Shown here: positions 22,786 through 27,576 of the stretch, one piece after another
How positions within the stretch are numbered: position 1 is the first letter of the stretch
Layout: the number at the start of each line of letters is the position of its first letter
Translations under genes and position numbers: made by a program
Assembly (NCBI GenBank): GCA_040902535.1
Contig: JBBDXD010000008.1
Location: 1 to 39,794, forward strand
Direction: 5' to 3'
Length of the DNA stretch: 39,794 nt
From: Dehalococcoidia bacterium
GTDB taxonomy: Bacteria; Chloroflexota; Dehalococcoidia; DSTF01; JACRBR01
The notes under the pieces: generated by a model
The model's database searches: none
What the model saw: only the letters and a program-made list of their open reading frames with translations
Told to the model about the DNA's origin: nothing

Positions 22786-23361
22786 TCAGACAGCAGGATC
22801 CAGCAGCTTCATCTGCTTGCGCAGTGAATTGAGCGCGCGATGTTGGATGACGCGGATGGCCGCGACACTCTTACCGATAATCTCGGCCACTTCGCGATAA
22901 TCTAAATCCTCGATGAAGCGGAGAATGATCACCTGCCGCTGCTCTTCTCGCAGCTTCAGGATGGCTTCCCGGACCAATTCCTCTTCCGCCGTCTGCTCGT
23001 ACGCCGATTCCGGATCGCGCCGCATCTTGTCGTCGATGATGCCTTCGTGGACCTGCGACGTCTCCCGCTTCGCTCGAAGGTGGCTCACGCCCAGGTTGTG
23101 AGCGATCCGCAGCAGCCACGACACGAAAGGCGCCCCTCGTACCTGGTACCGCTCGATGGCTTCCCAGGCCTTCAGGAACGTCTGCGCCGTCAAATCCTCC
23201 GCTTCTGGCGAGTTCCCCACCATGTAATAGATGTGCCTGTACACCCGCACGACGTGGCGGTCATACAACTCGCCGAACGCGTCCTGGTCACGTTGGATGG
23301 CGCGCAGCACGAGTGGCGTGTCATCGTTTGCGCGCGGTACCGCCTGGTTGGCGCTGACCAT
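22786..23361 (-). CDS. ECF-type RNA polymerase sigma factor
   Basis: 191 residues from ATG 23361 (GGGGAG upstream). Region 2 is YDRHVVRVYRHIYYMVGNSP then EAEDLTAQTFLKAWEAIERY; region 4 is LREEQRQVIILRFIEDLDYR then EVAEIIGKSVAAIRVIQHRA, with a helix-turn-helix. No anti-sigma gene with a zinc ZAS motif is adjacent. It sits between the VWA/FHA gene and cpaB, all on the minus strand, so it likely controls the Tad cluster or is expressed with it. No C-terminal extension is present. Confidence 0.93.
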   Translation of the reverse strand: MVSANQAVPRANDDTPLVLRAIQRDQDAFGELYDRHVVRVYRHIYYMVGNSPEAEDLTAQTFLKAWEAIERYQVRGAPFVSWLLRIAHNLGVSHLRAKRETSQVHEGIIDDKMRRDPESAYEQTAEEELVREAILKLREEQRQVIILRFIEDLDYREVAEIIGKSVAAIRVIQHRALNSLRKQMKLLDPAV

Positions 23362-23422
23362 GCTGTCTCGCACTCCCCGCTGTGCTGAACTGCGATCGAT
23401 CCCCAGAGTCCCCGTTCGCGGC

Positions 23423-23438: not shown

Positions 23439-23581
23439 TCCCAATGAGGATCGGCAGCACACAGGTCGTGCTTGAGTGCTTGCAGCGCGCACTCTCAGAT
23501 CGGCCGGGCGTATAAAGGGGGCGAAGCGTGGAGAACAGCCGCCCTCGGCTGTTCAATTCGCCGCAGGCGAACCACCAGCAA

Positions 23582-25540
23582 CTACTCTTCGTCGTCGGTG
23601 TCGACGTCGTCGTGAACCCGCGGTCCGCCTTCGCTCGAAGGCATCATGTCCGCCAACGGAATGCGGACCACGTCCTGTGATGCCGGCGCCGCTGCATCCG
23701 AGGCCACCGGATCGCGCAGGACGTTCGGCACCGGTCCGCTATCCACCGGTACAGGCGCGAGTGCAGGTGATGGTGCAGCATCGTCAGCGGCGATCTGCAG
23801 CGTTGACACGGGCGTGTCGAGCATCCGGAACTCGAAAACATGCTCGCCGATGGCAAACGTGTCGCCGGGCTCGAGGATCATCCATCCGCCCGACGTTCCA
23901 TCGGCCGCGATCACCGAAAGGCGCGTCATCCGGTGCACCATGAGGTGTCCGCCGCGGACCCACGTGCGCGCTTCCTCCGCCGCCAGCTCCGCATCGTCGA
24001 TCCGCACGCCGCACCGCGCGGCGGACCCCATACTCACGGGCGCGGCCCCCACCGTATACTCGCTGCCGAGGTCCGCGCCGCCGCGAGAAATCAACACGCC
24101 CAGCGGCTCGCCGATTGATTCTTGCTCCACTTCGGGTTCATCTATGTGCAACAGGGGCATTTCCGGCGCCGCGCGCGTTTGGGCGACTTGTTGCGCCCAT
24201 GGGACCGTGCGTTGCGTGACGCTCAGTTGCGCAATATCCGTCCCTCGGTGCCGGAACTTGAAGTAACCCAGGATGCAGCTACCTACGATCACGACCGCGA
24301 TTGCAGCGCCGAGAACGACGATCAGCGGCAGTCCGCCGCCACCGCTTCCGGTAGCCGCGACGGGTGGGCCGGACGTGAACGATACGCTGCTCTCGAGCGG
24401 CTGCCCGGCGACCTCCACGACCACGCGAATCACATGCTCGCCATTGGCAACGCTTCCAGCGTCGAACCTGAACACGTACGGCCCCGTTGCCATCTCCGCG
24501 ACTTGCGACCCATCGACGAAGAACAGCACCCGGGCTGCTTGCGTCGCCGGCCCGATGTTTACGAGGATGTCGCGCACGCCGTCCACCGTGTCGCCATCTT
24601 CGATGCCGCTGATGTCCACGAGCGGCGCAAAGCCCGGCGCCGGGCGGTACGTCGCTTCATCGCTCGCCTCGCGCCCGGCCGCGGAAACGCGCACGTTGAT
24701 CGTCGACTCCGGAAGCGCCGCGACGCCGGTGGCATCGAACGTGACGATGTATTGGTTGCGCAGCAGCCGCCCGACGCTCAGGTACAGGCTCCGCAGGTCA
24801 GCGGGATTGACGGCTTCCAGTAGCCGGCCCTTCGACACGTCGGCGACCTCCCGCAGATAGGGCAGGTCCAGGTCCGATCCCTGCGCGATCGTGAAGTACG
24901 GCACGCCGGCGTTGCGCGCGGCGTTGATCGCTTCGTCTCGCGTCGCCGCGCTCGCCCCGCCGAAGTCCGCGCCGTCGCTCAGCAACACCACCGCTTTCCG
25001 CGTCGCGGTCGAAGAGACGGCTTTGAACGCAGCCACGGCCGTCGCCTGGTAGAGCGCTGTGTTCCCCTGCGCGACCAGTCCGTCGACCGCCGACGTCACC
25101 AGTTGTCGGTCCTGCGTGTAGTCCTGCACCACGACGACCTGATCCGCGAAACTCACGACGGCCACGCGGTCGCTGGCTGCCAGTTCGCTCACCAGCGCCT
25201 TGGCTGCGTCCTTCGCGCTCGTCATCGCCGCGCCCGCCATGCTGCCGCTTGTGTCCATCACGAGCAGGAGGTCGAGCGGCTCGTCCTGCGACGACGCCAG
25301 CTCGGCGCTCACAACCGCCGCTGGCGCTCCGTTCGCCGTGATCGCGATGTTGTCCGCGCCCAGCTCCGCCAAGCCTGCGGCCGAATCATCTTCGATGTTC
25401 AGCACGAGCCGCGCGTGCGGATACGTGTCATCAGAAACGGATGCGATGTTGGCGCGCAGTGTCGACTCTTGTGCGGACGCCCCGAATGACCCGATCGCCA
25501 CCGCGAAGACAGCCGGTGCAAGCGCCAACCGCAATCTCAT
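23582..25540 (-). CDS. Secreted/membrane VWA-domain protein with C-terminal degenerate FHA domain
   Basis: 652 residues from ATG 25540 (GAGG upstream). Signal peptide LRLALAPAVFAVAIGSFGAS then AQ. The VWA domain has an intact MIDAS: DTSGSMAG, Thr in GNTALY and Asp in LLSDGADFGG. Next come Ig-like segments (VDISGIEDGDTVDGVRDILV), one membrane span (LPLIVVLGAAIAVVIVGSCI) and a cytoplasmic FHA-like domain. The FHA phosphothreonine residues seem lost: GS replaces GR, and AELAAEEA replaces the S-R-x-H stretch. An acidic tail ends in DDVDTDDEE. It lies at the head of the Tad cluster and may couple external adhesion or assembly to the cytoplasm. Confidence 0.88.
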   Translation of the reverse strand: MRLRLALAPAVFAVAIGSFGASAQESTLRANIASVSDDTYPHARLVLNIEDDSAAGLAELGADNIAITANGAPAAVVSAELASSQDEPLDLLLVMDTSGSMAGAAMTSAKDAAKALVSELAASDRVAVVSFADQVVVVQDYTQDRQLVTSAVDGLVAQGNTALYQATAVAAFKAVSSTATRKAVVLLSDGADFGGASAATRDEAINAARNAGVPYFTIAQGSDLDLPYLREVADVSKGRLLEAVNPADLRSLYLSVGRLLRNQYIVTFDATGVAALPESTINVRVSAAGREASDEATYRPAPGFAPLVDISGIEDGDTVDGVRDILVNIGPATQAARVLFFVDGSQVAEMATGPYVFRFDAGSVANGEHVIRVVVEVAGQPLESSVSFTSGPPVAATGSGGGGLPLIVVLGAAIAVVIVGSCILGYFKFRHRGTDIAQLSVTQRTVPWAQQVAQTRAAPEMPLLHIDEPEVEQESIGEPLGVLISRGGADLGSEYTVGAAPVSMGSAARCGVRIDDAELAAEEARTWVRGGHLMVHRMTRLSVIAADGTSGGWMILEPGDTFAIGEHVFEFRMLDTPVSTLQIAADDAAPSPALAPVPVDSGPVPNVLRDPVASDAAAPASQDVVRIPLADMMPSSEGGPRVHDDVDTDDEE

Positions 25541-25626
25541 TGCATTCCTCTTCGTTGGCTTCGATTGCCCTTGATAAGCGCCGGGCGGCAGCCGCTTTTG
25601 CGTGTAAAGTTTGGCTATCCCGCCTC

Positions 25627-25655
25627 TTGACAGCCCTCTGGCCCCATGGCAGAAT
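25627..25655 (+). promoter_or_regulatory. Promoter candidate for the AAA+ ATPase leader
   Basis: TTGACA (25627-25632), a 17-bp spacer and CAGAAT (25650-25655) give a perfect -35 and a 4/6 -10. Transcription would start near 25662 and give a ~490-nt leader before the ATPase ATG at 26149. Confidence 0.5.
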
Positions 25656-25659
25656 CGTG

Positions 25660-25911
25660 CCACCTTATGGTGGTGCGGAGCGCCAGGTGGAGCCGTAAGG
25701 GACATCTCACAGAGCAGTATCGACAAACTGTTGGCCGTGCTGAGCGGCAGCGTGAATGCAGGACGCAGTCACACGCGATTCCGGCAAGTCAATTTTCACG
25801 CGCGCCTCAGGCTGCGCGCGACCCTTCCGCTTCGGCGGAAGTCACGTCGGGGCCAAGGGTCCAGGGGACGACTGTTCAGGAGGCGGGGCCTGGCTGGCGT
25901 CCTCTGGCCCC
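25660..25911 (+). ncRNA. Candidate structured leader RNA upstream of the AAA+ ATPase
   Basis: Four stems are seen in about 250 nt without a credible ORF. (1) CCACC-TTAT-GGTGG at 25660-25673. (2) CGCGCGC (25799-25805) with GCGCGCG (25814-25820). (3) CTTCCGC-TTCG-GCGGAAG at 25824-25841, a 7-bp stem capped by a C(UUCG)G tetraloop. (4) GGGGCCA (25849-25855) with TGGCCCC (25905-25911), enclosing a nested AGGGGACG/CGTCCTCT helix and an inner CAGG/CCTG pair. A pyrimidine-rich tract follows. It does not match the c-di-GMP, cobalamin or other riboswitch consensus I know. An arrangement of this kind could be a cis-regulatory leader or an independent RNA. Confidence 0.35.
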
Positions 25912-26148
25912 AACCCGTTTCTTCCCTCCCTTCCCCCTTTGCTCACGTCCTTCTCGCCTCGACCCTCAGCATCAAGTGACGTGGCCCGACCCGGGCATCT
26001 CCAGCTTTCCCGCTTCCATCCGATACTCCATACGAGGACATGAGGGCGCCGCCGCCGAGGGCTAAGTTCCACATGGCCGGTCCACACCACGCCGGTTGCA
26101 CGGCGGTAGCGACGCGCTTCTTTGATGCGCTCGTCGGGAGAGCCCGGT

Positions 26149-27576
26149 ATGACGTTTGACACCGCCCGGAGGGAGACCGCCGCCGACGTTTCCATCAGCG
26201 CCCGCAATGGCGTCCCCGATTGGCAACCGGCCCCGTTCGTCCCACAGCCGCAGACCGTCGAAGAGACGGGCCTCGACTTCTCGACGGTCCTCGACCTGGT
26301 CGTGAAGGCCATCTACTTCGGCGGCCGGCCTGCCGCGCGCCAGATCGCCGCCCAGCTCGCACTGCCGTTCCCCGTGATCGACGAAGTCCTGGGGTTCATG
26401 AAGCGTGAGCAGATGGCCGAGGTGGTCGGCAGTTCCGGCATGGGCGAGCAACTCTACCAGTACTCGCTGTCACAGAAGGGCTCGGAAAAAGCCGAAGAGG
26501 CGCTCAATCGCAATCAGTACGTCGGTGCCGCACCCGTACCCTTCGAGTTGTACCTCGAAGTGCTGCAACGACAGACCATCCGCGCCATGCGGGTGCCGCC
26601 GCAGTCTGTCGAAGCATCCATCGCCCACCTGGTCATCGATCGCCCCGTCGTCGAGGCGCTTGGCCCTGCCGTGAACTCGGGCCGCTCGATGCTGCTGTAC
26701 GGAGGCTCCGGCAACGGAAAGAGCACCATCACCAACTCCATCGGACGCATGCTCCCCGGCGAGGTGCTCATCCCCTACGCCGTCGAGGTCAACGGCACCA
26801 TCGTCAAGGTCTTCGACCCGCGCGTGCACCAGGAAATTCCGCTCGATCAGCAGGTCGACCGCCGCAATCCCGACCCCGCGATGGCCGCCAACGAGCGCCG
26901 CCGTGACCGGCGTTGGGTCGTCGCGCGCCGCCCTATGATCTCGGTCGGCGGTGAACTGACGCTCCAGGAGCTCGAACTGCGATACTCACCGCAATCTCAG
27001 TTCTACATCGCCCCCATTCAGTGGAAAGCGAATAGCGGCATCCTCATCGTCGACGACTTCGGCCGGCAGATGATCCAGCCCAAAGAGCTGCTCAACCGCT
27101 GGATCGTGCCGATGGAAGAGCGCGTCGACCACTTGTCGCTGCACACGGGCGACATGGTCGAAGTGCCGTTCGACGTGTTGCTCATCTTCTCGACGAACCT
27201 TCATCCGTCGCAACTCGGCGACGAAGCGTTTTTCCGCCGGATCCGGCACAAGATCCACATCCCGGATCCGTCGCACGAGCAGTTTCTCGAGATCCTCGCC
27301 CGCGTCTGTCAGCAGCGCGAGATGCCGCTCGAAGCGGATGCCGCCCTCTACCTCATCGACGAGTACTACACGCGCACCGGTCGCGGGTTCAAGGGCTGCC
27401 ATCCCCGCGACATCGCCGAACTCGTCGCGGACATCTGCATGTACAACGGCGATCAACCGGCGTTCACGCGCAAGTTCCTCGACGCCGCCTGTAACTCCTA
27501 CTTCGTCGAGACCAACCAGGAAGCGGTCGCCGCCCACGTTACGGCGTTTGGCGGACTCGGCCAGGCCGCAGCGTAG
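26149..27576 (+). CDS. AAA+ ATPase divergent from the Tad cluster
   Basis: About 475 residues; ATG 26149 has GGGAGA upstream (an ATG at 26122 is less likely). The N-terminal ~150 residues are a winged-helix-like unit (LDLVVKAIYFGGRPAARQIA, then FMKREQMAEVVGSSGMGEQL). The ATPase core follows: Walker A GGSGNGKST, Walker B ILIVDDFGR, sensor-like LLIFSTNLHP, arginines FFRRIRHK and a lid helix (HPRDIAELVADICMYNG). Such ATPases are common beside Flp/Tad loci in Chloroflexota as I recall, but their role is not established. No membrane span is present. Inferred role: remodelling or regulation of the Tad system from the cytoplasm. Confidence 0.82.
   Translation: MTFDTARRETAADVSISARNGVPDWQPAPFVPQPQTVEETGLDFSTVLDLVVKAIYFGGRPAARQIAAQLALPFPVIDEVLGFMKREQMAEVVGSSGMGEQLYQYSLSQKGSEKAEEALNRNQYVGAAPVPFELYLEVLQRQTIRAMRVPPQSVEASIAHLVIDRPVVEALGPAVNSGRSMLLYGGSGNGKSTITNSIGRMLPGEVLIPYAVEVNGTIVKVFDPRVHQEIPLDQQVDRRNPDPAMAANERRRDRRWVVARRPMISVGGELTLQELELRYSPQSQFYIAPIQWKANSGILIVDDFGRQMIQPKELLNRWIVPMEERVDHLSLHTGDMVEVPFDVLLIFSTNLHPSQLGDEAFFRRIRHKIHIPDPSHEQFLEILARVCQQREMPLEADAALYLIDEYYTRTGRGFKGCHPRDIAELVADICMYNGDQPAFTRKFLDAACNSYFVETNQEAVAAHVTAFGGLGQAAA

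Follow-up and report, generated by a model that had tools for sequence, protein, structure and literature searches.

In Streptomyces coelicolor, the transcripts from the opposing promoters of scbA and scbR overlap by 53 bp, and in the model proposed for this gene pair polymerase collision and antisense pairing together produce a bistable switch (PMC3134472). The locus analyzed here resembles scbA–scbR in the overlap of two transcripts at their 5' ends (53 bp there, 47–59 predicted here), with interference and antisense pairing being possible. It differs from that system, where a regulatory gene pair yields two mRNAs: one of the partners here is a noncoding RNA with structure, and two types of sigma factor seem to serve the promoters. 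With the orphan structured RNAs such as Chloroflexi-1 (RF01698, PMC2864571) our RNA shares the narrow spread, the conserved hairpins and a role not yet assigned, but it is set apart from them by a fixed pair of opposing promoters and by the lack of an Rfam 15 match. The c-di-GMP-I riboswitch (RF01051) adjoins the RNA, within the same predicted transcript, in the genomes G017, G015, G010, and G008; the RNA itself is not such an aptamer, and in the family of the studied bacterium none was found at this position. The RNA does not appear in the titles and abstracts consulted on noncoding RNA of Dehalococcoidia or on Tad genes and c-di-GMP riboswitches in Chloroflexi.

The window (the whole analyzed stretch of 39,794 nt from an uncultured Dehalococcoidia bacterium) carries, between two pilus-linked genes, an undescribed noncoding RNA of ~260 nt whose structure is conserved, as judged from comparative sequence analysis. 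The RNA and its neighbors are listed below (f1 denotes the window's own family; f2, f3, and f4 denote others).

22786 to 23364, minus strand: gene of a small, ECF-like sigma factor limited to regions 2 and 4, the candidate reader of the CGATA boxes described below
23582 to 25540, minus strand: gene of a VWA-domain protein (Pfam VWA, 2e-17), divergent from the RNA
25627 to 25655, plus strand: predicted sigma70-type promoter of the RNA, TTGACA-N17-CAGAAT; TTGACA and a spacer of 17–18 nt in 13/13 f1, f4, and G283 genomes
25662 to 25921, plus strand: noncoding RNA of ~260 nt, the 5' end placed from the promoter and the 3' end from the stop of conservation
25663 to 25700, plus strand: 5' stem P1, CCTTATGG (25663–25670) with CCGTAAGG (25693–25700), with compensatory changes among f1 relatives
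25824 to 25841, plus strand: stem P4 with a UUCG loop, CTTCCGC-TTCG-GCGGAAG; seven of eight positions double-changed in f1, for hand-chosen arms
25848 to 25917, plus strand: core 3' hairpin of three stacked helices, covarying in 17 genomes
25881 to 25888, plus strand: apical loop of the core hairpin, AGGCGGGG, similar among relatives
26149 to 27576, plus strand: gene of an AAA+ ATPase of 475 aa with a Walker-A-like GGSGNGKS

An initial annotation had placed a promoter at 25627. The site is present, matches 10 of the 12 consensus positions, has TG ahead of the -10 box, and is the sole sigma70-like site within 25400–26400, where 0.1 is expected by chance. Identity among the f1 genomes amounts to 0.86–0.96 over 25857–25916, drops to 0.08–0.38 over 25917–25996, and goes up again over 25997–26056; the conservation of the RNA ends at ~25917, and the spacer that comes next is poorly conserved and varies in length. 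No reading frame stays open through the hairpin in all 17 genomes, in agreement with the earlier view that no ORF of this region looks coding. A search with Rfam 15 gave no match in the window at the gathering score, the c-di-GMP-I riboswitch (RF01051) included; the initial annotation had likewise reported no match to a known riboswitch consensus.

The promoter and the stems of the initial annotation were thus confirmed, but the folding energy of the 487-nt stretch is ordinary (z -0.23), 35 of 100 dinucleotide shuffles being at least as good. The z values were -1.39 for 25662–25921, -1.57 for the hairpin alone, and +0.32 for 25922–26148. A single sequence folds no better than chance would predict, and stems by themselves would carry no weight in a GC-rich genome; the argument is built on what relatives show, namely conservation and covariation. 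Stem P1 is absent from the minimum free energy fold of the window sequence alone, and the arms used for the covariation of P1 and P4 within f1 were picked by hand. The UUCG-capped stem (P4) and the nested hairpin (the core hairpin) of the initial annotation were both found, and most relatives have a hairpin at the P4 position. In the alignment of 17 core hairpin sequences 91.8% of cells are paired, with double changes in 14 of 23 pairs (28 such cells). None of 500 shuffles reached these values, a figure that is not a probability since the sequences share ancestry and their alignment was fitted to the model; shifting the partner by one to three columns destroyed the covariation. The paired positions hold G-U in 31 cells and A-C in two, which identifies the plus strand as that of the RNA. 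Families f2 and f3 use other letters for the helix but keep a loop close to AGGCGGGG; within the RNA, variation is lowest in this loop, in contrast to the changing helix letters. No conserved pseudoknot partner of the loop was seen inside the RNA. A long-range helix of AGTATCG (25716–25722) with CGATACT (26021–26027) was rejected on account of uncompensated mismatches in three of seven f1 genomes, and it is also opposed by the constant -35 partner of the 5' motif on the minus strand.

The ordinary folding energy is what a functionless GC-rich intergenic stretch with hairpins would give. Such a chance origin is already contradicted by the comparative data, namely the covariation, the G-U strand bias, and a conservation higher than at the 5' end of the ATPase gene, and we regard it as scarcely conceivable.

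The DNA search among 40 relatives detected the element in six of seven relatives of f1 and in three others of the order, the matches being strongest over 25849–25921. The covariance model R1, built from the core hairpin and used to scan genomes, raised this to 16 of 18 genomes of the order and to all 12 near-complete ones. Conservation and covariation of the stems, proposed earlier as the check on the element, were both observed. R1 also found the element in G283, assigned to another family; the respective locus (L051, G283:C98:54000-68000) is a close copy of the f4 locus in a genome of another family, pointing to transfer or a misbinned contig. At 15 loci with long flanks, the RNA lies between the divergent VWA gene and the AAA+ ATPase gene, and the VWA gene is followed by the sigma gene and the Tad genes CpaB, CpaE, and CpaF as far as the stretch reaches; the shorter loci of G002 and G005 have the same neighbors. 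This shared VWA–ATPase setting validates the weak matches in f2 and f3. Elsewhere (393 genomes of the class and 400 of the phylum), R1 gave only weak matches to GC-rich hairpins, several of which scored on the two strands alike; these were rejected as false, and the two inspected ones, L058 and L059, were without the VWA–ATPase context. Named records with a near-exact core were Dehalococcoidia and Chloroflexota MAGs. Altogether, several features of an independent noncoding RNA gene were found here, namely a promoter of its own, retention in relatives, and a covarying structure on the transcribed strand with no coding frame. The sequence comparisons show that the structured RNA, so far undescribed and outside the known families, is real and has its own predicted promoter.

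The constancy of the loop against changing helix letters, and the retention of the RNA where neighbors were lost, could point to a trans-acting small RNA, the AGGCGGGG loop of which would pair with C-rich sites of mRNAs or bind a protein, the VWA overlap being a by-product. The RNA was, however, never found outside the VWA–ATPase spacer or in two true copies, the loop has no conserved partner inside the RNA, and the targets are putative. We consider such a role unlikely.

A diverged universal housekeeping RNA, 6S RNA in particular, was also considered. The 6S model RF00013 gave no match in the bacterium's own genome (G000) at E 10, which speaks for this identity, and none within 25500–26250; as RF00013 detects 6S RNA in just eight of 14 control genomes, its absence says little. 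SRP RNA, RNase P RNA, and tmRNA lie elsewhere (C1:56689, C22:243083, and C1:2-352, respectively), none of them being the RNA locus, and the place beside the Tad genes is fixed. With no Rfam 6S signal at the locus, this identity is very improbable.

Three promoter-like boxes of another type were found in the cluster.

23447 to 23479, minus strand: box of the sigma gene, CTCAAG...GCCGATCCT, in ten genomes
25716 to 25744, minus strand: box within the RNA gene, pointing at the VWA gene, CTCAGC (25744–25739)-N16-CGATACT (25722–25716), in 13/13 genomes
25999 to 26027, plus strand: box of the ATPase gene, CTCCAG (25999–26004)-N16-CGATACT (26021–26027), in the f1 conservation island 25997–26056

The VWA box has a spacer of 16 nt in 12 of the 13 genomes (f1, f4, and G283) and of 17 nt in one. 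The sigma-gene box occupies the same place in all five f1 loci that are long enough and in G283, G017, G015, G008, and G009. The ATPase box, ~120 nt upstream of the ATPase ATG, occurs in 7/7 f1 genomes; in G283, G017, G015, and G008 the same type of box precedes the ATPase operon, 46–82 nt from its first gene. The f1 ATPase boxes are weaker (~11–17 bits) and differ at -35, the one of G006 falling below the 10.5-bit cut. The box model, trained on the VWA sites, gave a background of ~0.45 matches of at least 14.5 bits per 14 kb of Markov-resampled DNA; hence, single weak boxes prove little, and the argument is their repeated position. A facing VWA box was not clearly found in f2 and f3, with only G011 giving one (18.4 bits). 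The boxes may be read as promoters of one alternative sigma factor, most likely the small two-region sigma factor of the cluster. The predicted regulon would span the sigma, VWA, and ATPase genes (CTSAAS/CTCCAG, 16–17 nt, CGATAYT); similar boxes lie near the start of a CAP-domain gene in the f4 genomes. A sigma28-like CTTT-N11/12-CCGATA was rejected as a genome-wide promoter: one exact site in 3.18 Mb indicates that the strict pattern is not general.

Different surroundings were observed on the 3' side of the RNA in relatives. Directly 3' of the hairpin, a c-di-GMP-I riboswitch exceeding the gathering score was found in two f4 genomes, G017 (38.8 bits) and G015 (49.1 bits), and in two f2 genomes, G010 (64.1 bits) and G008 (42.5 and 36.9 bits), and one was seen there by eye in G283 and G014 as well. 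At the locus L053 of G008, around 6962 in core orientation, a single leader has one such riboswitch on either side of the RNA core. An intrinsic terminator follows the riboswitch in G017 and G010, and next comes, in several genomes, a gene encoding a product that is hydrophobic and signal-like at its N-terminus. Neither the riboswitch nor its downstream gene was found in the f1 genomes, G012, and G013, which kept the RNA, so the RNA is more than just a leader for that gene. The 3' region of f1 was rejected as a decayed c-di-GMP aptamer, since its profile misses the aptamers of relatives. G000 has two c-di-GMP-I riboswitches, both on other contigs.

An orthologue of the ATPase, which matched no Pfam family at E 0.001, is encoded downstream of the RNA in every genome with a true match; its paralogues in the same genome map to contigs C17 and C23. 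The flanks examined for ATPase homologues outside the order contained no such hairpin or riboswitch upstream. The initial annotation had offered two readings, a cis-regulatory RNA for the ATPase or an independent small RNA; made without relatives, it had no means of revealing the opposing promoter within the RNA gene or the riboswitch that adjoins the RNA in other genomes. In the former, readthrough from 25627 to 26149 would let a leader, perhaps left over from a c-di-GMP-riboswitch leader, control the ATPase in cis. The two lie on the same strand in a constant gene order, and relatives have a riboswitch and a terminator between the RNA and the next gene. No clear terminator was found 3' of 25917 in the window, only GTTTCTTCC, so readthrough into the ATPase gene is possible; in G009, an intrinsic terminator stands directly 3' of the hairpin. 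Against cis control speak the conservation gap at 25917–25996, the variable spacer (92–221 nt from the anchor to the box in f1), and the separate box right upstream of the ATPase. Moreover, in sister families the RNA leads into a gene other than the ATPase, which is 0.3–4.6 kb away, often with other genes between. We find ATPase control in cis somewhat unlikely. Given the loss of conservation after 25917 and the second promoter-like box immediately ahead of the ATPase gene, a box also present before the ATPase operon in sister families, the RNA is probably not mainly an ATPase leader; of the two original readings the independent unit is favored.

The arrangement of the promoters bears on what such a unit could do. 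With start sites placed 7 nt past each -10 box, the predicted 5' ends of the noncoding RNA and of the VWA mRNA share 47–59 nt in 13/13 genomes. By sequence prediction, all 13 thus have opposing promoters with overlapping transcripts, and the overlap held despite divergence of the intervening sequence and a changing distance to the hairpin. We propose that the principle modeled for scbA–scbR applies to this locus as well. Since the promoter of the RNA opposes that of the VWA gene at a fixed distance, mutual interference between them is probable. The reading we prefer is an independent noncoding RNA unit locked against an opposing VWA promoter that belongs to an alternative-sigma regulon, with about an even chance of being correct.

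According to this preferred reading, the housekeeping sigma70-type promoter at 25627 would give rise to an RNA of ~260 nt ending at or near the very conserved hairpin, while on the opposite strand of the RNA gene an alternative-sigma promoter would drive the VWA gene. As the promoters face each other and the predicted starts overlap by ~50 nt, a polymerase from each must traverse the other. By default, transcription of the RNA and the 5' antisense overlap would hold the VWA promoter down. Activation of the cluster-encoded sigma factor would reverse the repression of the VWA gene and switch on the ATPase from the box at 25999–26027. In part of f4, f2, and G283 the transcript would run into the c-di-GMP-I riboswitch, making the RNA there also the start of a unit probably controlled by c-di-GMP; the window's family lacks that part and kept the RNA. 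What the sequences show directly is a conserved, structured RNA on the plus strand, promoters conserved together with their geometry, and the riboswitch and terminator of relatives; from these patterns we infer the start and end points, the sigma factor reading the boxes, and the interference.

With this finding, a class that is largely uncultured gains a structured RNA family not described before. The RNA receives a testable position in the regulation of Tad-type pilus genes and is linked with c-di-GMP and with a small sigma factor for which a binding box is predicted. The fixed overlap of 47–59 nt constitutes one clear, testable prediction. A more speculative and rather doubtful extension raises the hypothesis that Dehalococcoidia possess a novel regulatory RNA class, the gene of which doubles as an operator of the pilus regulon. 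The structured RNA, produced by the housekeeping sigma factor, would be pitted against an alternative-sigma promoter in a mutual-exclusion switch, joined in some lineages by the c-di-GMP riboswitch. If true, the level of the second messenger and the activity of the sigma factor would jointly choose between two surface programmes.
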